Source of the DNA: Blastocatellia bacterium
GTDB taxonomy: Bacteria > Acidobacteriota > Blastocatellia > UBA7656 > JADIYM01
Assembly: GCA_021463145.1 (NCBI GenBank)
Contig: JAJTWZ010000025.1
Coordinates: 1 to 55,478, forward strand
Length of the DNA: 55,478 nucleotides
Reading direction: 5' to 3'
Positions 6,963-52,519 of the stretch are shown in pieces. Positions within the stretch are counted from its first letter, which is position 1. Every line of letters starts with the position of its first letter. A model generated the notes under the pieces. It worked only from the letters and a program-made list of their open reading frames with translations. It did no database searches and was not told the DNA's origin. Position numbers and translations under genes: made by a program.

Positions 6963-7349
6963 ATGCGAAAAACAGCCAATGTGACTCCCCGCTTCCAGCC
7001 CGGTGCAGTCCGCCATTACAGTCTGGAGATCGGCGCCGCGGACTTCGAGCGCGCGATGCGGTTCGACCAGGCGGGTGCGGCAGCGATGATCGGAGCACTG
7101 TCGCTCACGGCAGCGACCGTCTTCGTTGGTGCGGCAAACTGCGGCGGCGAGCTTGGACTCGACCGAATCGTCTTCGCGCTTGCTGCCGTATCGCTTGGCA
7201 TGTTCGCCTTCGCGCTCGTGAGGGCGTACAACCGCGCCGACTCGCTCGAACGCACGATGTTCCAGGGAGCGGTGGACTCGCTCCACAGGCGGGAGGCACA
7301 CACGCTCGGGGCCTTTGAGCGGATCCGGCGGCTCTCGATTCGGTCATGA
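6963..7349 (+). CDS. Small membrane protein coupled to relaxase
   Basis: 128 aa from ATG 6963 (AGGAA eight bases upstream). Two hydrophobic helices at about residues 38-60 and 70-92 suggest an inner-membrane protein with both ends in the cytoplasm. The last four bases overlap the relaxase start (ATGA), implying translational coupling. I do not recognise a family. By position it could be an accessory mobilisation protein tethering the relaxosome to the membrane, as MobB does in RSF1010, but no sequence motif supports that. Confidence 0.7.
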   Translation: MRKTANVTPRFQPGAVRHYSLEIGAADFERAMRFDQAGAAAMIGALSLTAATVFVGAANCGGELGLDRIVFALAAVSLGMFAFALVRAYNRADSLERTMFQGAVDSLHRREAHTLGAFERIRRLSIRS

Positions 7350-10300
7350 TCGTCAAGGCCTCGGGGAGCGGCGCGTCTGGCCGCTCCACGCTTCTGCGCT
7401 ACATGACGGAAGAGGGTCTGGCGCCGGAGATCGAAGGCGAAGGCCCGCGCGATCTCTTCACTCGTGAGAAGGAGGCGGTGCCCCGGCTCGACGCGGAGCT
7501 CTGTCTCGGACGCGACGATGCGCCCGTACGCAGCGAAGACGTGGTCCACCTGATCGTGAGCCTCTCGCCCAAGGAGTTCGAGGCGCTTGGAGACAATGAG
7601 GCGGAGCGTCGGGACGCACTTCGGGCTCTCGGGCGAGCGGCGGTTCGCGTGCTGGGCGACGAACGCGGCACCGGTGAGTTGCGTTTTGCGGGCGTCATCC
7701 ATCGCAACACCCCAAACCCGCACGTTCATCTCGCCATTGCCCGCGACGGCGAACGCAGCCGGCTTGTCCATCTGCCGCACTCGTTCTGGCAACGGTCCGC
7801 CAATCCCGAAGAAAATGGATTCAGAAGCAGGCTTGCCGCGCGGCTCGAGGAGCTCACAAGTGTCCCCGGTCGTGTTTCGCTCGAGATCCCGGGTCGCGGT
7901 CTCGTCGCCCGTGACGTCGTCGCACGCGAGGGTGCAACTCGCGACGAACTGACGGTCGGCCGTTGGCTTGCGGCCGAAGCGGCCGCGGCGGCGGACCCGA
8001 CGGCCGTTGGGCCGTCGAAGCTGTGGGGCCTGAGGCGTGCGGTCAGGGCGCTTGACGCGGCGACGTCGGAAAAAGGCGATCTGCCGCTTGCTGCGGCTCT
8101 GGCGCGTCCGGATCTTCGCTCGATGCTCGATCGTGAACAGGTCACGGGCGGCGCGGCGACGTTCGAACACCGGGAGCGGCTTGTCTCTGAGCGCCGGGAG
8201 CGGCTCGAGGCCGCGTCCCTGGCTCTTGGCGCGTCCGAACGCGCGGACCTCGAACTGGACCACGCCCGGTACGTCTACTTCCGGATTGCATCCAATGGTG
8301 AGCGTCTGCGATACGGAGCCGGCGAGCTTCCGACTTCGCTCAGGGACCAGACTCGACTCGCCGAAGCGGAGAGCTTCAGGGCCGCGGAACTGAGCGATCC
8401 GAGGACCTCCGAGGAGCGCGACGAGATCCTCCAGGCAAGTTATGCCGCGAGCCTTGCCGGAAGCTCCACGGACGCAAGCGTCATCGTCGGCAAGCACCGG
8501 AAGCACGTCGACCGGGTTCGGGGCGAGATGCTCGAGGCACAGCGAGTGGCCGAGGCGCTTCGTCCGGCAGCCATCGAGGCTCAGGCGGTATTCGGTCGTG
8601 AGCTTCGAGGGTCGATCGGTGATGATGCGCGTCTCGAGCTCGAGAACCAGGCTGCCGAGCGTGGGGATGCCAATGCACTGGCATTTCTCGATCTCGGGCG
8701 CGATGGACCGCGCACGGACGACGCCGCCTCGCGGCTTCTTGCGTGGAAGGAGCTCTCGGAGGCGACGCTGCGGACGGCGCGCGACCGTCTCGAGAGCTTC
8801 GATCGCGACCGTCACACGCGCAGGGTCGACGTCGACGGACGTCACTGGAGTCTTGCGGTTCTCGACCGCGACCAGGAACGCCAGGCCCGGGAATCGAAGT
8901 ATCTCAATGGTCGACTCTCGGTCTTCGAGCGTCACGCGCTCGAACGCGAGGGTCGGGACGATCCGGTTTCGCGGACGCTTCGCGCGCTAGTCAAACCACG
9001 CGGCGCGGCCGTCGACCGGCAGCTGGGCCTGCCCGGCCTTGTTGGAAATGTGCTCGACCGTGTCGCGGCGCTTCGGAGCCGGCCGGCGAAACTCGAGGTG
9101 CCGGTGCTCGAGCGCGTGCGCGCGGTCCGGGAGGAATTGAGGACTATCGAACGCGCGAGGCCCGTCGTCGAGCGAGCGCTTGCGGACGAACGTCGTGAAC
9201 TCGAGCGTGACGTTTCGGAATCCGAGCGTTTCTTGCGTGTCGTCGACGCTTCTGTCGAACGTATGCGGGAAGCGTCGCCGGATCGCGTCGTCGCGCCCGC
9301 TTTCGAGCCCTACGAGATCCGGCGGCTCGAGCGCGACGCGGCGCGAAGTCGGGACGTCTCACTCTTCGAGCGGGCAGTTACCCTGGCGGATACGATCGCG
9401 GAAACACCCGCGGTGGCGCACTCTCGCGCGCTCGCAAGAGAGCTCGACGCACGGGTTGCGGTCGAGGCGGCGCTCGAACGGCTCGACCGGCACGATCGGT
9501 ACCGTGACTCGGTTCCTGTCGAGGTCGACGGCACGACGGCCCGACTCCGGCAGGTAGCACCGGCTCTCATGCGGCCCGAGTGGAGCGTCCGGATTCCCGC
9601 GGCGCGTTCGGCTGCCGAGCGTCTGCTTGCGACCGAGGTCCGCTTTGACCTGCACGTCTCGACGAAAGCGCTTCGGCGCTTAGTGTTCACGTCGACCGGA
9701 GAACGCGCTCTCGAGCAGCGCGTGCGTGCGGGTCTCGACGAGATCCGGGACCGTCATTCGCGTGAGTTTGACGGCGCCACGCGGGTTCTCGAGGCGGCGG
9801 TCGCGCACCGGGAACTCACCGCATGCCGGGCTTCTTCGGAGACGAAGGCGATCTACTCGATCGACGAGCTCCACAGACTCCAGGTGTACGGGGCCGGCGG
9901 CGCAAACGAGCCGCTTCGGGCCTTCGTGTCCGCCGAAGTGCGGGCCGCGATTGTGGAGAAGCGGTGGGAACGAAACGAGACCTATCGCGGTGGCAAGGAG
10001 CGCGAGCATTCACGGGGAGAGGTAGCGCGAGCGGAGGGTGAACCTACAAGTCAGGGTGACGAGGTAGCCCGGTCGGTCGCGGTGGCTCGGGATGTGGCGC
10101 CCGCATCCGTCGAGCGCGAGGCCGCTTCCCCTCCCCCGCGAAGTCCTGGCGAAGATCTGACTCGCGGCCAGCTCCTCGCCCTGGCGAAGGTACTGGGACC
10201 TGTGGTCGACATCGGTGTCCGGCGTCCGAACGGCAAGATGCGGGAGTTCTCGCTTGGCGTAGCGGAGCTCGACCGGCGGATCGGCTACTTCCGCCATGAG

Positions 10301-11041
10301 AACGCGCACGGGGCCGACGTGTTCATCCGGCCGCACGAGAGCACGGGAGTCGTTCTCATGGACGACGTCTCGCGCGAGAAGCTCGGGGATCTCAAGCGAG
10401 CCGGAGTCCAGCCCGCCGCGGTCGTCGAGTCGAGTCCCGGCAACTTCCAGGCCTGGGTTCGCGTTGCGAGACAGCCGGTCGAACCGGCGGTGGCCTCAGC
10501 CGTTGCCCGGGACTTGGCCGAGACTCACGGCGCCGATATGCGTGGAGTCGCGTGGAATCATTACGGTCGCTGTCCCGGTTTCACGAACCGGAAACCGACG
10601 CGAATGACTGAACGCGGGGCGCCGTTTGCGAAGCTCCACGAGGCAGGCGACAGGGTTGCTGATCGCGGTCCGGAACTCGTTCTTAAGGCCGAGACGCGCC
10701 TGTCGGCGCCCGCTCCCCTTCCCGATCGAGCGTTGCCGAGTCCGGATTGCGAGAGGGGCAGGTCGGATCGGGACGCCGACCCGAAGGCGAGCTACGAGCG
10801 GCTTGCCTCGAGAGTTTCGCCCGAGGTTGCGCGGGACGCCTCACGCGTCGATTTTCGCGTGGCGGTCGGGCTGACTCGTGAGGGTCGCGACCGGTCCTGG
10901 ATTCGCGAAGCCATTGAGCGTGGAAGTCCGGGCCTCGACGAGCGCCGCAAGAGCGAGAGCTACGTGGACAGGACCATCGACCGGGCGGCGGACTTTCTCG
11001 CGAGGTTTCGAGAGCGCGGACCGGAGCGCAACCGCTCCTAG
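7346..11041 (+). CDS. Relaxase with C-terminal RepB-type primase domain
   Basis: 1,231 aa. The N-terminal ~200 residues form a MOBP-like relaxase: Tyr19 in GRSTLLRYMTEE is the likely nicking tyrosine, and H119-x6-H126-x-H128 (HRNTPNPHVH) is the metal-binding motif III. Residues about 260-900 are charged helical linker. Residues about 935-1090 resemble RepB-family primase (SSPGNFQAWVRV, then CPGFTNRK), followed by a short helical primase C-terminal region. The order relaxase-linker-primase matches RSF1010 MobA/RepB. It would nick oriT, lead the strand through the channel and prime the complementary strand in the recipient. No helicase motifs are seen. Confidence 0.9.
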   Translation: MIVKASGSGASGRSTLLRYMTEEGLAPEIEGEGPRDLFTREKEAVPRLDAELCLGRDDAPVRSEDVVHLIVSLSPKEFEALGDNEAERRDALRALGRAAVRVLGDERGTGELRFAGVIHRNTPNPHVHLAIARDGERSRLVHLPHSFWQRSANPEENGFRSRLAARLEELTSVPGRVSLEIPGRGLVARDVVAREGATRDELTVGRWLAAEAAAAADPTAVGPSKLWGLRRAVRALDAATSEKGDLPLAAALARPDLRSMLDREQVTGGAATFEHRERLVSERRERLEAASLALGASERADLELDHARYVYFRIASNGERLRYGAGELPTSLRDQTRLAEAESFRAAELSDPRTSEERDEILQASYAASLAGSSTDASVIVGKHRKHVDRVRGEMLEAQRVAEALRPAAIEAQAVFGRELRGSIGDDARLELENQAAERGDANALAFLDLGRDGPRTDDAASRLLAWKELSEATLRTARDRLESFDRDRHTRRVDVDGRHWSLAVLDRDQERQARESKYLNGRLSVFERHALEREGRDDPVSRTLRALVKPRGAAVDRQLGLPGLVGNVLDRVAALRSRPAKLEVPVLERVRAVREELRTIERARPVVERALADERRELERDVSESERFLRVVDASVERMREASPDRVVAPAFEPYEIRRLERDAARSRDVSLFERAVTLADTIAETPAVAHSRALARELDARVAVEAALERLDRHDRYRDSVPVEVDGTTARLRQVAPALMRPEWSVRIPAARSAAERLLATEVRFDLHVSTKALRRLVFTSTGERALEQRVRAGLDEIRDRHSREFDGATRVLEAAVAHRELTACRASSETKAIYSIDELHRLQVYGAGGANEPLRAFVSAEVRAAIVEKRWERNETYRGGKEREHSRGEVARAEGEPTSQGDEVARSVAVARDVAPASVEREAASPPPRSPGEDLTRGQLLALAKVLGPVVDIGVRRPNGKMREFSLGVAELDRRIGYFRHENAHGADVFIRPHESTGVVLMDDVSREKLGDLKRAGVQPAAVVESSPGNFQAWVRVARQPVEPAVASAVARDLAETHGADMRGVAWNHYGRCPGFTNRKPTRMTERGAPFAKLHEAGDRVADRGPELVLKAETRLSAPAPLPDRALPSPDCERGRSDRDADPKASYERLASRVSPEVARDASRVDFRVAVGLTREGRDRSWIREAIERGSPGLDERRKSESYVDRTIDRAADFLARFRERGPERNRS

Positions 11042-20160: not shown

Positions 20161-20183
20161 GGAGTCCTCCTCGGGTCCGTGGC

Positions 20184-20252
20184 TGTGAATTCCAGAAGAC
20201 GATGCGAAATTCACAAAAGACGATGCGAAATTTCCAAAAGACGATGCGAAAC
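20184..20252. repeat. Left end of Tn7-like element: three end repeats
   Basis: Terminal TGTGAATT followed by three 21-bp tandem copies with core AAAAGACGATGCGAAAT, starting at about 20194, 20215 and 20236. They are the likely TnsB-type transposase binding sites. Confidence 0.8.
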
Positions 20253-20549
20253 GGGGCCCTTTCCGTCGGAGACAATCGGTCACGATTCGATGTGTGGCCG
20301 ATCGGCTGAAGCACGAGACGCTCCTGTGTTTGGGGCGGTGTCGCCTCAGCTCGGGAGGCGTGGCGGAGACAGACGCACTACAGCCGCAATCGCAAATTTT
20401 CGAGTGGAGCGACCCTAAGTCAACGATTTTCATCGATGGACTCGTTGACTGCATTCGCAAATGTGTTATACGGAGCTGTCTAGATATTGAGTCGGCCCGC
20501 GATAAAGCGCTAAGCCTTGGAATCTTGCACTGACTGAGGAGAAGTTACG

Positions 20550-23252
20550 ATGAGACTTGGACTGATCGGCAAAGAGTGGCGTTCGTTTCTGGTCTACCCA
20601 GTAGCCCTTCTCACCGTGTGTTCGGTGCTGAGCGTTCCGTCTTACGCTGGTCCGATCTCGACTTTGCCTATTGCAACTGCTCCGGCGGCGCTCCAAGAAG
20701 AGCCGGAACTTCCAGCGAGGGACTGGCAAGCTGAAGCATCGAATCACATCGTCGATGCGCAGGTGCTAGCAGGTACCTACTACGATCTCACGACCAGCGC
20801 CACCTGTGTCGTGACGTTCAACAATAAGGGACCGGCCGCACTCGATGTCACGCCAACTCTCTACAATCTCGCAGGTCAGATCCGAACGCTCGCGGCCGTG
20901 AGCGTGCCGGCGAACAAGGCTTCATACGTTGACATGCGAACCTGGGTGCCAGTTGGCGACACCCAATTCGAGCAAGGAAGCATCCATCTTGCATACCAAG
21001 GTGAGGATCTTAGGCTCGGTGCACAGGTTCGGATCTCCAGACAGGCCGACAGCACTGGGTTCGATGAGCAGCTCGTCGATCACACGGCAAAATTTGCGGG
21101 AACCACCCTTGAAGGCGCTTGGTGGCTTCCCACGACGACGGCAACAATGCAATTGCTCCTCTCGAACACAAGTGGATCGTCAAAGACGGCAACCGTGACG
21201 GTCGCACGAAAAGGCGCGGCAAGTGTAACGCTGCCCTTTACGCTCACAGCCCACCAAACCCGAGTCCTGGACGTCAAGCTGGACGTACTCGCTGGCGCTG
21301 CCCTCACCCAGCTCGGCGGAATCAAGGTGGTGCACACAGGACAGCCCGGAAACGTACTCGTTCGCGGAACCGTGACAAAGGGCGCAATCGGTTACTCCGC
21401 ATCGATCGACTTCATCGATCCTACGATGACCAGTTCGTCGACGCTCCATGGCGCCGGACTTCGAGTGAAGAGCATAGGCGGACAGGAACTTCATTCATAC
21501 GTCGTCGCCAGAAACCTTGGCGCAGCCGCGACGACCGTTACCGGTCGACTTCGATACACGACGACATCCGGCTCAAACAACGTCATCGAGATGAGCCCGC
21601 TCACGATAACTGGCAGCGATGTCCAGCTTATTCAACCCTTAAACACGCTTACTCCTGCTCAGAAAGAACTTGTCGCGGTCGCAGGAGTCGAGCTCGAATA
21701 CAGCACGTTACCGGGATCGGTCTATCTCTCTTGTCAAAGCGTGAGCGCGAACGGCACACATCTGTTCCGTGTGCCGATGCTTGATCCATTGGCCCAGAAG
21801 AGTAGTAGTGGAGGGTACCCGTGGCAGGTCATCGACGACTGGTCGACTGTCGTCTACATCAAGAATGTAACTGCGGTACCGCAGTACTACACGCTTCAGT
21901 TCAACTACGCTGGCGGAGTATACGCGCCAGGGCAAAGAGAGCTTGCTGCCGGCCAGACCGTCTCGATCGACATCAAGGAACTGCGAAACAGCCAAACGCC
22001 CGACGAAGCCGGGTACAAGATTCCATTGACCGCCGACAAGGGTCAAGTTCAATGGTCCATGGACGGTGACGACAATCTCGTGATCATTGGCCGGGCGGAG
22101 CAAGTCAATCCCACAATCGGCCTCAGTAGCACGTATGCGTGTCAGAATTGCTGCCCGGACAGTTTCTACTCTCTAGAGGGAGTTCCAGACCCACTTGAGG
22201 GCCCTCCTGAAGCATCTGTTCAATTAAAGGCAACCATTGCCGTCTCGAACTGTTACGGGACGATCCGAGTTCGCGTAAACGATTCATTTAACCGCTGGCT
22301 TGCGCTTCCGAACCCGTACTGGGCCAGCAACGAAAGTATCGCCAGCGTCAGTCCGACTTCCGGGCTTGTGACGCTGAATGACTACGGCAACGCCACAATA
22401 TACACCGTTGCTCGAGACCGAGAGTACCTGCCGGGGAGCGGACCGGGAGGGTGCCAGTTAATTATTAGCGAGTTCACCGAGGACACTCCAGTGAAGGTGC
22501 ATAGCGTGAGTGTCACGGTGTCGACCAGCACTGTGCGGCCGACCGCCGAAGGCGAGGTCAACAATACCGTCGTAGTGACCGTCCAGGCCACGCCCGCTGT
22601 ACCGGGTGAGTCCGTAAAGATGAAATCACGATTGGCGCTACTGCCTCTTGGTCACAATCACGGAGGAACACCCGCTACCGGAACCTTTGCCAACACAACG
22701 GGGATCACAAATGCTTCCGGCCAATTTCAGACTACATTTACCGCTCCCGTGTTTGCGTTGCTTGTACTGTCACTTGAAGGATCCATCGGGAAAGTAAGCG
22801 GAGGGTCCATTGTGTCAGTTGGGAACTTCGCTCTCGTGGAGCTTCCCTACAATGAACCGTGGTACAGAAAGGTTGGTGATGACGAATGGCACCCGGAAAA
22901 CCACTGGGGGTCGCCGACGTGCGTGGCCGGCCTGCAGGAGTTGGCGCGCTACTATAACGAATTCTGGTATGGGTTTGGCTATCCACCCCCGAACCCCGAG
23001 TACCACAACGTACTCTCGTTTAACGACATTAGTCTTGTAGGAGGAGGCAAGTTCGACACGGCCAATAGGGCTTTTGTCGATGGTGGCGATCATATTGAAC
23101 ATAGACTCGGCCGCGAATGCGACGTGCGCAACATCAACATCGACGCGGATCGGCACACGACCGTAATCGCGTTATTTGAGTTTGCGGGGATCGTGAGTTA
23201 CATCAATCACACCGGGGCAAAGCCCCATTGGCATGTGAGGTTTCCTCAATGA
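20550..23252 (+). CDS. Secreted protein with C-terminal M15-like peptidase domain (transposon cargo)
   Basis: 900 aa, GAGGAGA upstream of ATG 20550. Signal peptide at about residues 1-33. Residues about 60-560 are beta-rich repeats of unknown type. About 560-660 is Big-like (WASNESIASVSPTSGLV), then an Ig-like stretch to about 770. The last 60 residues carry H851-x-x-G-x3-D858 and H893-x-H895, the zinc-binding pattern of M15/M74 murein peptidases. A large exported peptidoglycan or D-Ala-D-Ala peptidase is likely. Base composition is lower in GC than the plasmid genes around the transposon. It overlaps the next gene by ATGA. Confidence 0.8.
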   Translation: MRLGLIGKEWRSFLVYPVALLTVCSVLSVPSYAGPISTLPIATAPAALQEEPELPARDWQAEASNHIVDAQVLAGTYYDLTTSATCVVTFNNKGPAALDVTPTLYNLAGQIRTLAAVSVPANKASYVDMRTWVPVGDTQFEQGSIHLAYQGEDLRLGAQVRISRQADSTGFDEQLVDHTAKFAGTTLEGAWWLPTTTATMQLLLSNTSGSSKTATVTVARKGAASVTLPFTLTAHQTRVLDVKLDVLAGAALTQLGGIKVVHTGQPGNVLVRGTVTKGAIGYSASIDFIDPTMTSSSTLHGAGLRVKSIGGQELHSYVVARNLGAAATTVTGRLRYTTTSGSNNVIEMSPLTITGSDVQLIQPLNTLTPAQKELVAVAGVELEYSTLPGSVYLSCQSVSANGTHLFRVPMLDPLAQKSSSGGYPWQVIDDWSTVVYIKNVTAVPQYYTLQFNYAGGVYAPGQRELAAGQTVSIDIKELRNSQTPDEAGYKIPLTADKGQVQWSMDGDDNLVIIGRAEQVNPTIGLSSTYACQNCCPDSFYSLEGVPDPLEGPPEASVQLKATIAVSNCYGTIRVRVNDSFNRWLALPNPYWASNESIASVSPTSGLVTLNDYGNATIYTVARDREYLPGSGPGGCQLIISEFTEDTPVKVHSVSVTVSTSTVRPTAEGEVNNTVVVTVQATPAVPGESVKMKSRLALLPLGHNHGGTPATGTFANTTGITNASGQFQTTFTAPVFALLVLSLEGSIGKVSGGSIVSVGNFALVELPYNEPWYRKVGDDEWHPENHWGSPTCVAGLQELARYYNEFWYGFGYPPPNPEYHNVLSFNDISLVGGGKFDTANRAFVDGGDHIEHRLGRECDVRNINIDADRHTTVIALFEFAGIVSYINHTGAKPHWHVRFPQ

Positions 23253-24202
23253 CAAAGGCACTCGCATCGATCGTTTTGGCGTCGGTCGTGTCGGGGTCCG
23301 GAAACATGGCGTCGCCCCAAGTGACTATGCCTGCGCCCGAGCGAAAACCCCTTATTAGCGGACAAGTGCGGTTGGTGTCACCGCTCTCGTATACATTGCG
23401 ACAGTTACCTCCCGATCCCGTAACTGGTGACGTAGCTACATATGACTTCAAACCGACGGTGACCACCGTGGACGAACGGGCGGGCATTTATGACCTGTCG
23501 TGGATCGGATACGATCAACGTGTCAAATCGGTGCGATATCAGGCTCGAGATCGCCTCTCAGTTGTCGTTGAGGCGATAGTCTCTCGGACGTCAACCGATA
23601 TGATTGACTACAAATACGTGGTTAAGAGCCAGCTATCGAGCGCGCAGCGACTAACTGTATTCACCGTACAAAGCCTGTCGCCGACGGCAGTTGGCGATAA
23701 GCAGGAAGGTCTCGTCGTGGCCTGGATGGGGCAATATCTTAGAGAGTTTAGTAGCGGCAAGTGGCTTGCGTTCGCTGTCATTTCCGATGCGCCGTTGCAA
23801 GTGGAGCCTGGGATGAGTAGGGACTTTCACGTCCGGGCGACGGCGCTGCCCGGGCTTGTTGGCTGTCGGGTAGCTGGAGGGTCAGCGGGAATGGACGGTC
23901 CTGACGAGGAAGTCCCGGAAGTACTTATGAATCTTTTGCCTGGCCATGGAGTATGGCCGTTAGGAAAGACACTGGGACCGGATGACAGTATCTCCAAGAT
24001 GTCAAGTCAACAGAGAAGAACGTATTGGATGGAGCGACTTGGCGAGCTCGAGGAACTTGGGTGGATGTCGCCGAGTTCGCGCAGTTGGTTCGGGCGGAAT
24101 CTCGAGAAGAGCTCGAAGGCGGCACTAGTGGCCGAGACTCTCAGGTGTCGAGGTCGTGGGGAAGTGACATCGGAAATAGTAAGCATTGTGGAGTCGCTCT
24201 GA
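23249..24202 (+). CDS. Secreted hypothetical protein, partner of the peptidase
   Basis: 317 aa from ATG 23249, whose first bases overlap the stop of the peptidase gene (ATGA); an upstream in-frame ATG at 23228 lies inside that gene and is less likely. The N-terminus (residues 1-22) looks like a signal peptide. The middle is beta-rich; the C-terminal ~80 residues are helical and include an ERLGELEELGWM segment. No family recognised. Coupled translation suggests it works with the peptidase, for instance as inhibitor, immunity or chaperone, but that is inference. Confidence 0.7.
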   Translation: MTKALASIVLASVVSGSGNMASPQVTMPAPERKPLISGQVRLVSPLSYTLRQLPPDPVTGDVATYDFKPTVTTVDERAGIYDLSWIGYDQRVKSVRYQARDRLSVVVEAIVSRTSTDMIDYKYVVKSQLSSAQRLTVFTVQSLSPTAVGDKQEGLVVAWMGQYLREFSSGKWLAFAVISDAPLQVEPGMSRDFHVRATALPGLVGCRVAGGSAGMDGPDEEVPEVLMNLLPGHGVWPLGKTLGPDDSISKMSSQQRRTYWMERLGELEELGWMSPSSRSWFGRNLEKSSKAALVAETLRCRGRGEVTSEIVSIVESL

Positions 24203-24218
24203 CACTTCGGCTCTGTTG

Positions 24219-24766
24219 CTATCTGACGGGGACCATCTCCCTCGGCGCACTGACAAGCGATCGGTTGAAAGTGACTCCGGCATCGATTCTAACTTCCCGC
24301 GTTCGTCTCCTGGCCACAGCCAGCGAGCTATTGCCGAGTAGAAAGCGGGCGTTTTGGCGGTAACGTGTCCGGATCTCGCACTCCGTGAGAATCCGAGTTC
24401 GCAAGCCGGCTCCCGCGCGTACGCCCATCCGGCTCGAAGCTTCGGTTTGAGCCTTGGCCAGTCGGCAAAGAGGTCAGCCCGGTATTACACTTCGGCGAGC
24501 TCGATGCGCTTCGGCCGTCAGAGCACAAGACTGCCTCGACACGCCACCAGAAGGTCAGGAGCATAGGAACGCGGCGATCCGTCGGTAGCCGTGTAGCCGA
24601 TGGAGACGGGCTACTCCTCATATCCGAGCAACTGGGCGTCGACCTTGCCAAGAGTCACAAGGTCGCGTTCGAGCGTCGATTCGAATTCGGCGGCTCGACA
24701 CAGATTGGCGCTGGCGATGCGGCCGGTGACGCTGCGATGGCTTTTCGGGATCGAGCGTGTAGGCAT
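24219..24766 (-). pseudogene. tnsA: tnsA pseudogene (Tn7-type endonuclease)
   Basis: Reading from ATG 24766 gives a clear TnsA N-terminus: RSIPKSHRSVTGRIAS then FESTLERD. The frame continues through in-frame stops at 24611-24613 (TAG), about 24518-24520 (TGA) and 24485-24487 (TAA) while keeping YAPDLLV and ELAEV. The lysine expected after ELAEV is the TAA. A one-base deletion near 24386 then moves the conserved C-terminus (LTECEIRTRYRQNARFLLG) to another frame. TnsA cuts the 5' ends of Tn7-like elements. Position and orientation, starting next to the right end and reading inward, match intact Tn7 elements. Confidence 0.85.
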
Positions 24767-24780
24767 CCCGGGCCAAGAAC

Positions 24781-24913
24781 GTAGCACCGACTCCTGTGAA
24801 ACCCTAACTTATTCGCATCGTTTTCTGTGAGATGTCGCACCGACTTCTGTGAAACGAGGGCCCAGAACGGGCCAAATCGGCCCTCGATTTCGCATCCTCT
24901 TCTGGAATTCACA
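24781..24913. repeat. Right end of Tn7-like element: four end repeats
   Basis: Repeats in inverted orientation to the left end at 24781-24800 (GTAGCACCGACTCCTGTGAA), 24811-24830 (TTCGCATCGTTTTCTGTGA core), 24834-24853 (GTCGCACCGACTTCTGTGAA) and the terminal one at 24888-24913 ending GGAATTCACA. The uneven spacing of right-end and left-end sites is as in Tn7 elements. Confidence 0.8.
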
Positions 24914-24925
24914 GTGGCGGACCCG

Positions 24926-24960
24926 GAAAAAGGACCGGAACCCCCGTGAGAGGGCTCCGG
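24926..24960 (-). terminator. Rho-independent terminator
   Basis: On the minus strand the stem CCGGAGCCC / GGGGTTCCGG (24960-24935, one wobble) is followed by TCCTTTTT. It lies 15 bases past the stop of the 175-aa gene, just outside the transposon. Confidence 0.8.
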
Positions 24961-24975
24961 TCGGGACGAAGAGCC

Positions 24976-25503
24976 TTACGCCTCGATGGGCGTGCGGCCG
25001 GGAAGGGCGACGAGGCCTTCGATTTCGCTTCTGTCCCAGTGCCACTTGGGCACCGAAACACGGACCGTGCCGTCGGAGCTGCGCGCGATCTCAACGCGGT
25101 CACGGGCGAACCAGAGGGCGAAGCCCTTGTCGTCGGGATCGGCGGCGCCGAGTTCGGTTGTGACCTTGATGCCGAGCCGGTCTCGCCAGTAGATGAGCCC
25201 GGCGGCCTGGGTGACGATGTCGCGCGTCTCGCCGATGGGTCCCATCGTCGCCGTCATCGCCTCGTCGCGCGTCTCGGGAGCGAACGATCCCCGGTCGAGC
25301 TGCCGGCGCTCCGCGCGCGGTTCGAGAGAGAAGCGCAGCGCGTTTTCCCGGATCTCGTTCTTGGAGTACCGCGTGCGGGGATCGTCGATCTCGTAGTCGC
25401 GATCCTGCTTCCGAATCGCGTCCATCTGCATCGCCCTCGGGGCGTCGCTTTCGCGCTCGCGCCTGAGCCTTGCGATCTCGTCGTAGATCTCTTCTCGCGT
25501 CAT
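24976..25503 (-). CDS. Hypothetical protein, 175 aa
   Basis: ATG 25503 has AAAGGAGATC at good distance; an in-frame ATG at 25539 has no ribosome site and lies in the leader hairpin. The first half is very charged and helical (REEIYDEIARLRRERE); the second half is mixed alpha/beta (GIKVTTELGAADPDDKGFAL, then VRVSVPKWHWDRSE). No family recognised. Its ribosome site is the 3' arm of a long perfect hairpin. Confidence 0.75.
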   Translation of the reverse strand: MTREEIYDEIARLRRERESDAPRAMQMDAIRKQDRDYEIDDPRTRYSKNEIRENALRFSLEPRAERRQLDRGSFAPETRDEAMTATMGPIGETRDIVTQAAGLIYWRDRLGIKVTTELGAADPDDKGFALWFARDRVEIARSSDGTVRVSVPKWHWDRSEIEGLVALPGRTPIEA

Positions 25504-25579
25504 TGTCCCGATCTCCTTTGACTGTGAAGTGGCGGTCACGAAGTAGCCGCCACGGAGCAGTCAAAGGAGATCGGGGACA
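25504..25579 (-). promoter_or_regulatory. Long leader hairpin sequestering the ribosome site
   Basis: On the minus-strand RNA, CCCGATCTCCTTTGACTG (5' arm, within 25579-25558) pairs perfectly with CAGTCAAAGGAGATCGGG (3' arm, within 25524-25504). An inner 6-bp stem GTGGCG/CGCCAC lies between. The 3' arm contains the whole Shine-Dalgarno and ends at the start codon. The fold starts 9 bases past the stop of the upstream regulator gene. Confidence 0.75.
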
Positions 25580-29383: not shown

Positions 29384-29974
29384 CTATGCGCATTCGGCGT
29401 AATCGTGGCGCACGGCGACCGCCGCCTCCCGATCGGGAAGCGGCGAGACGTCGACGACGTGAAAGAGGGTCCGCCCGGACCAGGTGACGCGGCCCGTATC
29501 GGTCACGACGCCGGCCGCGACGAGCGCCTGGAGGGCGCCTCGCGTGGAGGCGCCGACGAGTATTGCCGCCTGGTTCGGGCCGAGCCCGAGCCCGGGCAGC
29601 CACCGCGTGAGTTCGAGCGTCCGGCCCGGGAACGGTTCGGACAGGGCGAGAAGCACCCCGCCGCGCGCGTAGCGCGCCTGCTGGAGCTTTCGCGGCCTGC
29701 CGCGAAGGGTCACGGTCTCCGGACGGTCGAAGACGCGTCCCCAGCCGGGATGTGAGCCGGAACGCTCAACGATGTAGCCGTAGAGAGCGTCGTCGATTTC
29801 GACGAACGGCGACGCGACGCGCGAGAGCAGCGCAGGATTGGAAACGTACTGCTCGAACACGGGCCGCGTGGACGGCGCGTCCCACGTGACCTCGAACGTG
29901 AAGTCGTGGATCCACCGATTGTACGAGATGACGACGGTCGAATCGCCGTCGCGACCGCGAAGCCTGAGATACAT
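29384..29974 (-). CDS. Hypothetical protein, 196 aa
   Basis: ATG 29974 follows AAGGAGG. N-terminal beta-strands (MYLRLRGRDGDSTVVISYNRW) lead to a basic middle. The C-terminal ~70 residues (AAILVGASTRGALQALVAAGVVTDTG) may form a small helical domain shared with the 126-aa protein. No known family. It lies 11 bases after the DUF4326 gene and is probably co-translated. Confidence 0.68.
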   Translation of the reverse strand: MYLRLRGRDGDSTVVISYNRWIHDFTFEVTWDAPSTRPVFEQYVSNPALLSRVASPFVEIDDALYGYIVERSGSHPGWGRVFDRPETVTLRGRPRKLQQARYARGGVLLALSEPFPGRTLELTRWLPGLGLGPNQAAILVGASTRGALQALVAAGVVTDTGRVTWSGRTLFHVVDVSPLPDREAAVAVRHDYAECA

Positions 29975-30982: not shown

Positions 30983-31559
30983 GTGATCAAAGCGCTGCAA
31001 CGTCGCGCGGCGCAGACGGCGAGCTGACCGACTACGGGCTGGACTCAATCGCAGGAACCCCACAGCGAGCGCCATTAGGACCGCGTGGCGGTCCTAATGG
31101 CGCGAGCGGAGCGTTGTCCCGTTTGAGGCGAGAGCGCGCGTGTAGCGTGTTTTCGGGCCGCAGCGGCCCGGGGCCGTGTCGGCAGCTCCCGGAGCCGGCC
31201 GGCCTTCGGGTTCCAAGCTCTCCCGACGGCGACAGCACGTGGTCGACGACGACTGCTCAGGTGTCGCCCCTCCGGTGGCTCGTGTCGTGCGGTTGCGCGT
31301 CGAGCGCCCGGGCGATGCCGTTTCCCGTCTTCGGTGGCCACGGGCCACCGCGTCGGATGTCGTGATGGAGGGCTCGCCCGACATCCGGCATCCGCCTGGA
31401 GAGTGACCGGAGGGGAACCGGGCAACCTCAGGTCGGGGCTGTCTATTTGTCGAGATTCCGCGCAAGCGGCCGAAGGACGAAGATGCTCTCACTCGAAGAG
31501 TGGCATCCGAGCTAGCTAGTTTCCCTGACCCGGCTCGTGGAGCGGGTTGAAGTTCATGA
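30983..31559. other. Gene-free region with strong palindromes
   Basis: About 580 bases with no supported coding sequence. A 16-bp perfect stem with a 3-base loop occupies 31069-31103 (GCGCCATTAGGACCGC, GTG, complement). CGGGCCGC-A-GCGGCCCG is at about 31157-31173, and GGTGGCC/GGCCACC near 31332-31348. It marks the upstream boundary of the minus-strand plasmid gene series and probably contains its promoter. Confidence 0.5.
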
Positions 31560-44365: not shown

Positions 44366-46126
44366 CTAGACCCCAAGATCGGCCGACAGCTCTCTAGGGG
44401 CAATCAGGAGACGATCACATCTCAGATCGTCGGGCTCGTCGAACCTATTGATACGTGTGACATCTGCGTCATCGAGAGCGCTTCCGAGGAGGAACTCCGG
44501 GTCGGGTTCCTCGACGCCAAGGTGAAAGTGGACGTCGACTTCCGTGGCGCCGACGCGCGCGCAGAGAAGCACGAACACGGAGAGTTTGTCGGACGGAAGA
44601 TGGCGTCGGCGCTCTCGTCGCGCGAAGCGGTCGCCCTTATCGGTGCGCTCGAACGACAGAACAAATTCTTCAGGCATATTGTCGACTCGAACGAGTGGGC
44701 GCGGGACGGCACGCAGGTACCCCATCCGGACGAGCGGTTCGATGTCACGGAGTCCTACGTATGTAGCCCGATCCGCGGCCCCTTCGCGAGGCTCAATGGG
44801 AACCATGACGGCGTAGCCGTCCTCGCCGTTATGGCGGTAGAGCTGCGACTGGTCTAGCTCGAGGAGGAGCAGCCGCATTTGCTCAGGCCTAACGAAGGGG
44901 TGCTCGCCTGTTGCAAAGCGCTCGGAAAGGAGAACCGTGATCGCGGGCCGTCCGGTCGCCGCGTGACGCTCATGATATTCACTGATCGCGCCAGCCCTAC
45001 CGCCCCCACTTCCCTCAAGCCAAGCATACGGCTCGAATGCGGGGATGTCCGCGCGCAGCCGGCTAGGCAACATCCATAGCATGGTGCGAAGATTTTGCCC
45101 GGGCTCGAACCATCTGCGACCATTCGGTCCGAACAGCTCCAGGACGCGCTCCATGCTGGCATCTTCGGAACTCTCGTCCAGAAAGTCGAACCGGATCTCG
45201 AGTTGGTCCTCGAGGTACCACTTTCCGCCGAGAACGATCTCTATAATCGGCTCGTCAGCGGTGAGGTCTACGACAGCACGGTGAACGTTAGCTTCCTCCG
45301 CGCGGGCAAGAGCGCGATCGATAAGTTCATGGCCGCGCGCAGGCGCATCGGCGCCGGTGCTCGTGGGCGGCACCGCGAGCCGCACCACGATCGGGAACGA
45401 CGCCGGCAAATCGGCTTGCGGTGCCGCCGGCTCGTAGATAGCGGAGGTCTGGAGGTCAGCTTTGCCGCCGAGTCGGCTCAACTCGACAAGGCGCTCCTCG
45501 ATCTGCGCGTTGACCTGCCGACTGGGGTACCGGATATCGTGATCGATCTCGCCCCAGGAGTTCTCAAACATGGTGCGCAGTTGAACCTCGGCAAGAAGCG
45601 CGCCTCCGGTGTTCGGCACCTCTACAACGTAGTGGATGGACCGGTACCCGTTTTCAGATCGGCGCACCTCGAGTCCCGCGTCGCGGAACCACTCGGCAAC
45701 TTCCGTCTCCTCCCAAGCGGCGACGTTTGCCTCGGGGGGATTGCGATGGCGGAATCCGTCACTGAGGCTCGCGTGGATCGATCGCCATCCTCGCTTCTCC
45801 AGGTGCATCGCCCGCACGCCGATAAGGTCCGTCATCTGGCTCGCATAGGTCTTGAGCGTGAAGTCCCTGGCGGAGTCGTCTCTGCGCTTCCGGATGATCT
45901 TCGCCACAAGGCCGTCTCCGCTCTTCACCCGAAACGCCACGTCGTGCACTCCTGGGATGGAGGCGACCTCACGAGCTAGGAAGGCAGCGGCGTGCTCGAG
46001 TTCGGGCCGGCGGCTCTCGTGGTGCTCGTAGATTTGCTCCAGAAGGAACTGGTCAACATTAGCGGCCTCGAAGTCGGCAGACGAGAGGTTGTGCCTTTTA
46101 AGGACTTCCTGGATCGAGAGCAGCAT
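44366..46126 (-). CDS. RelA/SpoT-domain protein with long C-terminal extension
   Basis: 586 aa. Residues about 45-205 are an alarmone-synthetase domain with the key elements intact: R66-x-K68-S69, D100-LIGVR, Y161-RSIH165, E180-VQLRT185 and W191-x4-H196. No hydrolase or TGS/ACT domains are seen. Residues about 225-586 form an unassigned, acidic region with regular alpha/beta alternation. It could be a (p)ppGpp or (pp)pApp synthetase, or a tRNA-pyrophosphorylating toxSAS-type protein with a built-in regulatory half as in CapRel. Monocistronic, flanked by HigBA and an SBBP gene. Confidence 0.82.
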   Translation of the reverse strand: MLLSIQEVLKRHNLSSADFEAANVDQFLLEQIYEHHESRRPELEHAAAFLAREVASIPGVHDVAFRVKSGDGLVAKIIRKRRDDSARDFTLKTYASQMTDLIGVRAMHLEKRGWRSIHASLSDGFRHRNPPEANVAAWEETEVAEWFRDAGLEVRRSENGYRSIHYVVEVPNTGGALLAEVQLRTMFENSWGEIDHDIRYPSRQVNAQIEERLVELSRLGGKADLQTSAIYEPAAPQADLPASFPIVVRLAVPPTSTGADAPARGHELIDRALARAEEANVHRAVVDLTADEPIIEIVLGGKWYLEDQLEIRFDFLDESSEDASMERVLELFGPNGRRWFEPGQNLRTMLWMLPSRLRADIPAFEPYAWLEGSGGGRAGAISEYHERHAATGRPAITVLLSERFATGEHPFVRPEQMRLLLLELDQSQLYRHNGEDGYAVMVPIEPREGAADRATYVGLRDIEPLVRMGYLRAVPRPLVRVDNMPEEFVLSFERTDKGDRFARRERRRHLPSDKLSVFVLLCARVGATEVDVHFHLGVEEPDPEFLLGSALDDADVTRINRFDEPDDLRCDRLLIAPRELSADLGV

Positions 46127-49880: not shown

Positions 49881-51188
49881 ATGCCGATCGATGATCTCGG
49901 TCCATTACCAAAAGCTGACGACCTAATCACGGGCGAACAGGAGAGCCGCGCGGCGCTTCGAAGTGCACTCGATCATCGGCGATTCAGACTCCGCGACGAG
50001 CCCGAGAGCGACGCCGGTGTCGACGCCTCACTTGAGATTCTCGTCGACGGCAGTTACACGAATTGCAGGTCACAGCTTCAGCTAAAGAGCACGGCCGACG
50101 AATCGCGCAACGTGGATGGTTCAGTCTCGTACCCGATCGACGTGAAGAACCTCAATTACCTCCTCAACGGGACGAGCCCCATCTACGTGTTGTATATCAG
50201 GCCACGGGGTGAGCTTCGATTCGTTTGGGCAGTCGACGAGCGCAGGCGCCTTGACGATGAGAATCCGGACTGGATGGATCAGAAAACCATCACGGTGCGC
50301 TTTCATCGGCTGCTCGGTGAAGCTATCGACGAGATCCACGGTCGGGTGCTGCAAGAAGGCCTGCTGCTTAGCGACATTGCCCGCCGCCTTGCCGATCGGA
50401 CGGTGTCCGAAACGCACACATTGCACATCGACGCCGCCACGCTCAAGACCATCGATGCGGAGCACGCTGAAGACGTGCTTCTCGCCAACGGACTGTCGAT
50501 TGTCACAGCCGGATACCCGGATTACGTATTGCGTGTACTCGGGATGGTCCCCCGAGAGCACGCTTTGAGCGGGCGCCTCAGTTTGGTCCGCGCTTATGCA
50601 GAGTTCGCGCTCGGACGGGTTACCTCCGCCTCTGCTGCGCTGCAGGACGCGGCTGTGCAATCCGATGATCTTGCTTCGGAAGACCGGCGTTTCCTGGCGC
50701 AGCTTCAAGACGCCTGCGATTTTCAGTCCGGACTGATCACTGTCGATGAATTTGCCGGCCGAGAGCGCGAGCTAGCTGAGCAGGACTTAAGCGATCCTGT
50801 ACACCGGTTGTTTGTTCTGAGGGAGCAAGCGCTTCGTGACACCGACATGACTGTCCGGACGAACCGTATGGCCGAGGCTGCGCAGATCGGCGGCGAAATT
50901 CTCGAGCGGTCAGATGTGTCGCCGGCCGTGAAGTTGACCGTCAAACTACACATTCTCCACCTAGAGGCCCCGATGGAGATGTCACAAGCGCTTGCCTCTG
51001 CCACCAAAATCGCGATGCAACGCGCCTTCGGATTCTCTATCGACGAGATCGAAATTGAACGTGCGGCTACCCAGTTCGGCGACGCGGCCTTCCGTTTCGA
51101 TAACGAAGGAGAGGCGCTGATTGCTGAGGCAGCGGCAATTGGCCACCCTCTTCTATTTGGCTCTTCAGGAATTCGTGTGGGCAGATGA
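49881..51188 (+). pseudogene. DUF4365 gene, 5' part, interrupted by an IS
   Basis: From ATG 49881 the frame encodes 426 native residues, then runs into the IS at 51159 and stops at 51188. N-terminal DUF4365-like domain: ESDAGVDASLEIL then CRSQLQLKST, the D...Q-x-K pattern of PD-(D/E)xK-type nucleases, followed by NYLLNGTSPIYVLYI. The rest is helical, TPR-like. Joining it at the target duplication to 52520-52912 restores a continuous ~556-aa protein. Possibly a defence nuclease; activity not shown. Confidence 0.75.
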
Positions 51189-52519
51189 TCGGCTGATGCC
51201 GGTCGGATAGAGGTCGAGTTGGCCGAAGTGGAAGTAGATCGCGTTGCGAAAGCGGGTGCGATTCCTGAAGCCTCGCGCCTGCGCCTTGATTCGCTGAATG
51301 CCGCTGTTGAGTCCTTCGGCATGTGCGTTCGTGATTCCGAGGACGATCGCATTGATGATTCCGTACAGGTGCCGTTTGACCGTCCTGGCAGCCTGCTTGA
51401 TCGGTTCGAGGTTCGTGTGAATTGCGGACTGGTACCACTCGCCCCAAGCCTTCTTCGCCCAAGTTCTCGAGACGTAGTGCCAGAGACCCATGGCCCACTC
51501 TTTGTAGAACCAAGCCTTCGCCGTCCGCAGCGACTCGGCTCGCAGTGTCTCGAGCCGCTCCAACGCGGCCCGTGTCATGTTGCCGGGTGTCGTGAGCCAC
51601 AAATAGCGCGTGCCGGTCAGGGTCGAGTCGCCCCATGCAGCCAACTCCCGGTGCTCTTGTCGTCGCACGAGGTCCACCGCACTGCCCAGGTGCGATGCCA
51701 CGTGGAACTTGTCGAAGCAGATCTTGCGAACCGCATCAGGGACGTGGGTGACCGTGGCTCCGATGTAGGCGGCCGACATGTCCATCGAGACCGACTCGAT
51801 CGACGACAACTCGTCGGCGGTCAACCCCTTGTAGAACGCATCAAGCGTATCGCGTCCTCGCCCATCGGCCACAGAGACCACCGCCCCCGTCTCCTGGTCC
51901 GAGATCACCGTCACGTATTCGTGTCGCTTCGCAAACGACGTCTCGTCGACACCCATCCGTCGGGGTACCGATCGCTCGCGACGCGCGAGTCCACGCTCGA
52001 CGGCCCGCTGCTGGATTCCGGCTACCTCGTCCCACGACAGTCGCAGCAACCGTGTGACGGCAGACAAATTCGCCTCTCGCATCCAGTCGATCGCCAAGGC
52101 CTCGAACATCGCCGTAAATCGAGATCCTTCCTCCGCCCACGGAACATGAACCTGCTTGACGCCGTGTTCGTTGCACTCGACCCGCGGCACCTGCGCGACC
52201 AGCACGGTCTGAAACTGACACGTGTCCAGATGTCGCCAGCGCCGCTCTCTCGTGTCGTAGCCAGGCGACGGCTTCCCGCAGACCGGGCACGCCTGCCCAG
52301 TGCCGGATTTGACCGCCAATCGGACTTCGACCCGCTGCCCCGGCGTGTCCAGATCGACGTCAACCACCTCCCACGGAGAGGTCACGCCGAGAATCGCTGC
52401 GTACAGATCTCGATCTCGCATGCCGCAAACCTACGGCCACGATCTCACGCTCGCAAGCTCCACCGGTGTCAATGTCACGGTCTGGCTACCCACACAGAAC
52501 CCGGAAGCGCCTTCTATTT
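51151..52519. mobile_element. ISL3-family insertion sequence
   Basis: IS at 51159-52511 (1,353 bp) flanked by the 8-bp duplication TTCTATTT (51151-51158 and 52512-52519). Ends start GGCTCTTCAGG and GGCGCTTCCGG (right end read inwards) and share TGTGGG-AG further in. The single transposase fills the element. Both ends and the transposase look intact, so it may still be active. Confidence 0.92.
51165..52421 (-). CDS. ISL3-family transposase
   Basis: 418 aa. N-terminal zinc-ribbon-like C-x2-C region (ACPVCGKP, VECNEHGVKQVHV), helix-turn-helix, then the DDE domain: GVDETSFAKRHEYVTVISD (first Asp), SVSMDMSAAYIGA (second Asp), and a C-terminal SNAHAEGLN-type block (ITNAHAEGLNSGIQRIKAQARGF) with the Glu. 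Length is normal for the family. Confidence 0.95.
   Translation of the reverse strand: MRDRDLYAAILGVTSPWEVVDVDLDTPGQRVEVRLAVKSGTGQACPVCGKPSPGYDTRERRWRHLDTCQFQTVLVAQVPRVECNEHGVKQVHVPWAEEGSRFTAMFEALAIDWMREANLSAVTRLLRLSWDEVAGIQQRAVERGLARRERSVPRRMGVDETSFAKRHEYVTVISDQETGAVVSVADGRGRDTLDAFYKGLTADELSSIESVSMDMSAAYIGATVTHVPDAVRKICFDKFHVASHLGSAVDLVRRQEHRELAAWGDSTLTGTRYLWLTTPGNMTRAALERLETLRAESLRTAKAWFYKEWAMGLWHYVSRTWAKKAWGEWYQSAIHTNLEPIKQAARTVKRHLYGIINAIVLGITNAHAEGLNSGIQRIKAQARGFRNRTRFRNAIYFHFGQLDLYPTGISRSSAHTNS

Follow-up and report, generated by a model that had tools for sequence, protein, structure and literature searches.

Genetic organization of the locus

The window, that is, the whole stretch of 55,478 nucleotides that was analyzed, is a contig of a Blastocatellia bacterium. 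Judged from its genes it is very probably a plasmid, since its RepA is related to those of Acidobacteriota plasmids (Granulicella, Acidisarcina) and a 1231-aa protein (7346-11041) joins a relaxase-like N-terminus to a RepB-type primase C-terminus. No terminal overlap closing the contig was found. Elsewhere on the contig are a 586-aa protein with a RelA/SpoT domain (44366-46126), located near beta-propeller (SBBP) genes, and an ISL3-family transposase (51165-52421). The element described here is delimited by inverted termini, a target-site duplication and repeats resembling TnsB-binding sites, and it contains two overlapping open reading frames and a disrupted tnsA gene (Table 1).

Table 1 Features of the Tn7-like element and its flanks, with positions in the window.
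Feature	Position	Strand	Remarks
Degenerate Tn7-like element, end to end	20184..24913	.	4730 bp; inverted termini, target-site duplication, TnsB-site-like repeats
Left terminal inverted repeat	20184..20210	+	TGTGAATTCCAGAAGACGATGCGAAAT; 26/27 identical to right end; 98% identical to the C85 solo end over 45 bp
Right terminal inverted repeat	24887..24913	-	Inverted copy of left terminus
Target-site duplication, left copy	20179..20183	.	GTGGC
Target-site duplication, right copy	24914..24918	.	GTGGC
Three tandem 21-bp repeats, putative TnsB-binding	20190..20252 (20190, 20211, 20232)	+
Four repeats, uneven spacing, putative TnsB-binding	24779..24907 (24887, 24832, 24810, 24779)	-
Cargo ORF1, 900 aa	20550..23252	+	Predicted N-terminal export signal; C-terminal M15-like domain (EHRLGRECD ... 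HWHVRF)
Cargo ORF2, 317 aa	23249..24202	+	Judged by inspection to be an exported partner; start codon overlaps the stop of ORF1 (ATGA)
tnsA pseudogene	24300..24766 (low-coordinate end approximate)	-	Stops TAG 24613-24611, TGA 24520-24518, TAA 24487-24485; frameshift near 24390
Left half of target palindrome	20172..20183	.	CGGGTCCG-TGG-CGGACCCG; pairs with 24914-24925
Right half of target palindrome	24914..24925	.
Intrinsic-terminator-like hairpin	24933..24962	-	13 pairs; after gene 24976-25539 (-); right end faces the 3' end of this gene

Transposon ends and the tnsA pseudogene

The terminus TGTGAATTCCAGAAGAcGATGCGAAAT stands in direct orientation at the left end and inverted at the right end with a match of 26/27 bp, whereas the terminal match never exceeded 22/27 in five shuffles of the region. 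The initial annotation had counted 27 of 28 bases; the near-perfect correspondence holds, but the 28th base is part of the duplication. Its perfect GTGGC duplication was present on both sides of the element, and its three left and four right repeats of about 21 bp were recovered by a matrix scan. These seven sites scored 20.8-34.3 bits and the rest of the window at most 13.6, although the matrix was derived from the seven sites themselves, which makes their scores high by construction. A search with the core motif returned 7 matches, versus 0.55 expected by chance. The element thus has TGT...ACA termini, a 5-bp target duplication and arrays of ~20-bp putative TnsB sites inverted between its ends, as expected of Tn7-like transposons.

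The tnsA reading starts with the ATG at 24766 on the minus strand, 13 bp inward of the innermost repeat of the right end. All the lesions claimed for it, three in-frame stops and one frameshift, were located, and alignment placed the third stop at the K position of the EVK/EIK motif of its relatives, bearing out the reported loss of this lysine. Past ~24390, the match to TnsA resumes in another frame with LTECEIRTRYRQNARFLLG, which shows 59% identity over 29 aa to the TnsA of a Pseudomonas plasmid element. The comparison with TnsA profiles that had been proposed succeeded in part: the remnant matched Pfam PF08722 at E = 0.0014, but its score of 19.6 bits lies under the Pfam cut-off of 26.5 bits, presumably because of the lesions. 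In tblastn searches of plasmids, E values went down to 3e-10 for annotated TnsA genes of Pseudomonas and Sphingobium elements, and in two of the plasmid elements inspected, genes for a Mu-type TnsB and TniB come next after the matching TnsA. Identities of up to 43% were found in genomes of the phylum. No reading for TnsB (DDE transposase), TnsC (AAA+) or TniQ was found within 20184-24913, in line with the loss of machinery and the non-autonomous status stated at the outset, and the element is therefore a derivative of a Tn7-like element and not an autonomous member of the group.

In Tn7, TnsA is located at the right end and reads inward, the cargo lies between the left end and the transposase genes, and insertion occurs directly downstream of a gene (glmS) with the right end facing that gene. 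The element in the window shares the position and direction of TnsA, the placement of the cargo and a right end directed at a gene's 3' end, in addition to the Tn7-like TGT/ACA ends, 5-bp duplication and 3+4 TnsB-type sites, the last corresponding to the three left and four right TnsB sites of Tn7 (PMC8649781). It differs from Tn7 in that TnsB, TnsC, TniQ/TnsD and TnsE are missing and TnsA is dead, in the strict 21-bp tandem arrangement of its left sites, and in a target behind a plasmid gene instead of glmS.

Related ends and transposases in other genomes

The only further copy of the terminus in the host genome is a solo left end on contig C85, which runs from 29969 downwards for 45 bp at 98% identity, includes two repeats and then gives way to unrelated sequence; its flank differs from that in the window. 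A second complete copy of the element was not found in the host genome.

Contig C51 of G010, a genome of the same class, encodes TnsA (PF08722 and PF08721), TnsB and TniB, and the end repeats TTACAAAAGACGATGATAA of this genome resemble the repeats TTCCAGAAGACGATGCGAAA of the window. Once a nested TnsAB element (duplication TCCCC on both sides) is removed, the joined sequence of C51 reads ...TTTTTACAAAAGACAGTGATAGCAAATT-ATG, placing the repeats TTACAAAAGACrrTGATAr directly before the TnsA ATG as in the window. The TnsA start is MPVRKIPKSYRSLTGRFAS in C51 versus MPTRSIPKSHRSVTGRIAS in the window, and the C51 terminus on the TnsA side is TGTGGATTACAAAAGACAATGATAA. On another contig of this genome, C5, a left-type end carries the repeat in three tandem copies. 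Furthermore, G266, a genome of the same phylum, encodes a TnsAB fusion that matches the window remnant at 42% in its TnsA part, and an end, TGTCAATTCCACAAGCCAATGATAA, is located ~6 kb from where this gene starts.

The element therefore shares with G010 C51 (TnsA-TnsB-TniB) and G266 (TnsAB fusion and further transposition genes) the end motif TGTGgATTaCAaAAGACgATGatAA and a TnsA that is 42-43% identical, and with G010 also a similar TnsA start and repeats shortly upstream of the ATG. In contrast to the window, both relatives possess machinery, their end repeats differ at several positions, and in G266 TnsA and TnsB are fused. By sequence comparison, the end motif, its arrangement and its placement beside TnsA are common to the window and its relatives, whereas the exact sequence is not. 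The search for intact relatives with the same end repeats, which the initial annotation had suggested as a check, thus gave a match at the motif level (G010 C51/C5 and G266) and none in exact sequence.

The same ends together with an intact transposase were found neither in the host nor in 162 genomes of the class, 396 genomes of the phylum or, for one exact pattern, the GTDB contigs. A class-wide repeat scan returned the host only, plus one single match taken as chance. Among 104 stretches of tandem ACGATGCGA cores in GTDB contigs, the 40 with the best context resemble chance matches or protein repeats, and viral contigs scanned for the end motifs and the G010 TnsA gave nothing. The host does encode two TnsAB fusions, at C91:23200-28870 (with a TniB-like ATPase and TniQ) and C100:1361-4066, which are 28-29% identical to the G010 TnsB and belong to a different clade. 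The C91 repeat is of the ACCCATAACTTTGC type, like the ends of the G010 TnsAB element; ends of the C100 element were looked for and not found. Because of this low identity and the other repeat type of C91, the two transposases were rejected for now as mobilizers of the element, and the host assembly yielded no cognate TnsB.

The G010 loci also showed nesting. Three Tn7-like or Mu-type machineries are nested in one locus at C51:22000-36000, where a TnsAB-TniB-TniQ element is inserted into the first codons of the tnsA of another element (duplication TCCCC) and its TniQ protein carries a trypsin-like domain. Nested Tn7-like ends occur again at C5:6896-7000, with a TnsAB-type end within ~80 bp of the three-repeat left-type end.

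Target site

When joined, the flanks of the element form a palindrome with an 8-bp stem, CGGGTCCGTGGCGGACCCG, and the duplication is centred on its loop. Nine 8-bp-stem palindromes of this kind occur in the 50.7-kb empty-site window, versus ~1.2 in shuffled sequence. The palindrome lies just beyond the terminator-like hairpin of the gene at 24976-25539, so that the right end of the element faces the 3' end of this gene. Likewise, the right end in G010 points toward an open frame at its 3' end, with the flank GTGGCTGACC versus GTGGCGGACC in the window, and both right ends are flanked by GTGGCkGACC. A site preference nevertheless stays a lead (n = 2), because the flanks of the C85 and G010 C5 ends are different and do not fit. 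Comparison of the flanks with plasmids at the DNA and protein level gave no empty site in the searched collections, since no close plasmid relative turned up there. The GTGGC hairpins were also considered as a repeated plasmid signal, which was discarded as the other two (28889, in an ssb-like coding gene, and 31086) look unrelated. A long palindrome, GCGCCATTAGGACCGCGTGGCGGTCCTAATGGCGC, with a stem of up to 16 bp is present at 31068-31106.

Cargo operon

Both cargo reading frames are open, with hydrophobic export signals recognized by inspection at their N-termini. LAS metallopeptidases (M15/M74) are characterized by the spacing of their H-x(6)-D and HWH motifs, and the ORF1 domain shares this spacing. 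In its EHRxGxxxD motif, which is invariant, H84, G87 and D91 are retained in 6/6 aligned relatives from the class, and HWH of the HWHxRF motif is present in all five relatives whose sequence reaches it; the domain thus has the conserved zinc-ligand motif HxxxxxxD and HxH of M15/LAS metallopeptidases. It differs from these families in lacking a profile match above threshold, and searches of Pfam, NCBIfam, PHROGs, PADLOC and PDB gave it no name, apart from one relative with a weak M74 score (E = 0.19). On the basis of its motifs, ORF1 is probably an M15-type zinc metallopeptidase, and the cargo proteins would be exported and act as a peptidase with its partner. The initial description of an M15-like exported peptidase is accordingly matched by the motif and, by inspection, the signal, but not by any naming profile, and that of a coupled exported pair agrees with the ATGA overlap and with adjacent homologs elsewhere.

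Homologs of the ORF1 domain and ORF2 lie side by side in four other genomes (G156, G056, G067 and G105), whereas G118 and G126 have broken or separated versions of the pair. Near the cargo homologs, no ends of the window type gave a convincing score. The operon is conserved in the class and is not normally inside this transposon. The window holds the only complete copy of the pair found in the host genome. An internally deleted copy is located at C85:68693-69938, where the N-terminal third of ORF1, 78% identical at the DNA level, is joined to the C-terminal half of ORF2. Between this copy and the window cargo, dN/dS is ~0.06 over 259 codons, and selection therefore acted on the protein during most of the divergence. 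The C85 cargo copy and the C85 solo end were examined as parts of one element and found not to fit, as the cargo lies at 68.7-69.9 kb, whereas the end, at 29969, is directed toward lower coordinates.

Probable origin of the element and possible mobilization in trans

The element very likely derives from a Tn7-like transposon of an Acidobacteriota-type lineage, the phylum to which the RepA of the plasmid points, and survives as a non-autonomous remnant with intact ends around a cargo operon for two putatively exported proteins. The degenerate Tn7-like origin put forward initially is supported by the terminal repeats, duplication, end repeats and tnsA pseudogene, all of which were found. Like MITEs and other non-autonomous elements, it has kept its ends and lost its machinery; unlike MITEs, it is 4.7 kb long, maintains a cargo operon and occurs as a single complete copy in the genome. 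The ~21-bp repeats, three on the left and four on the right, would have been the binding sites of a TnsA+TnsB-type transposase that cut at TGT/ACA. The element would have entered the palindrome loop just beyond the terminator of the plasmid gene, creating a 5-bp duplication, with the TnsA-side right end toward that gene. TnsB, TnsC and TniQ would have been lost by deletion and TnsA killed by stops and a frameshift. As to the identity of the repeat-binding protein and the order of gene loss, this is the course of events that we infer.

The ends and duplication show 1 difference in 64 bp, versus three stops and a frameshift in TnsA. One common neutral rate for TnsA and the ends gave a posterior-weighted P of ~0.002 (2lnL 7.1), a rough value that depends on only three stops and on the mutation spectrum assumed, and a more stop-prone spectrum would weaken it. 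Cleaner ends than TnsA favor a movement after TnsA began dying, hence in trans. Mobilization in trans, as suggested initially, is plausible, and we rate the chance that the last move relied on a transposase supplied elsewhere as slightly below even. Decay in place is nearly as likely and receives appreciable, though less than even, credence: the element would have inserted as an autonomous transposon and then lost TnsB/C/TniQ and TnsA, its ends being kept by chance or youth. This alternative contests the step in trans and not the Tn7-like assignment. It gains from a host assembly with neither a cognate TnsB nor a second complete copy, and from the different clade of the two host TnsAB elements, of which C91 appears to have another end type; it is weakened by the contrast between ends and TnsA just given, and by the C85 solo end, which shows that the same ends existed elsewhere in the genome.

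The Tn7-like assignment itself has far weaker competitors. TG..CA ends, multiple end repeats and short duplications are common to several DDE families, so the TGTGAATTCCAGAAGACGATGCGAAA ends might belong to an unrelated DDE element (e.g. of the IS21 family) beside a coincidental TnsA fragment. This is very unlikely, given that the tnsA pseudogene starts so close to the last right-end repeat, that G010 has the same kind of repeat just upstream of TnsA-TnsB-TniB, and that the 3+4 site count matches Tn7; moreover, no istA/istB ORF was recognized in the element, which holds the TnsA remnant instead. Least credible is an inverted repeat without transposition, produced by palindromic flanks and an assembly or recombination artefact, for although the inverted repeat continues past the element into the flanks (CGGGTCCG...CGGACCCG), the palindromic target explains this extension, the mismatches sit at the duplication, the terminus recurs on C85 beside a different flank, and the TnsA pseudogene lies where expected.

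Returning to the non-autonomous Tn7-like remnant, a more far-reaching version appears unlikely, namely that the element is still mobilized in trans, carries a functional secreted metallopeptidase-partner operon and prefers GTGGC hairpin loops behind terminators, the pair being a new secreted two-protein system of the class spread by plasmids.

Implications for Tn7-like elements

The element is a tidy, well-delimited example of an already known kind, with a cargo operon that is conserved but unnamed. A survey of Tn7-like elements, which delimits them around the tnsB gene, covers 4 Acidobacteria host species (PMC8649781). The element documents a Tn7-like end family, TGTGaATTcCAgAAGACgATGcgAA, probably in a phylum with few surveyed Tn7-like elements, and is a clean example of a transposon whose ends and cargo have outlasted its transposition machinery. 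It also draws attention to its cargo, a conserved two-gene operon that has no name and whose products are putatively exported. If mobilization in trans is true, the spread of Tn7-like cargo would reach past the elements that are detectable by tnsB.
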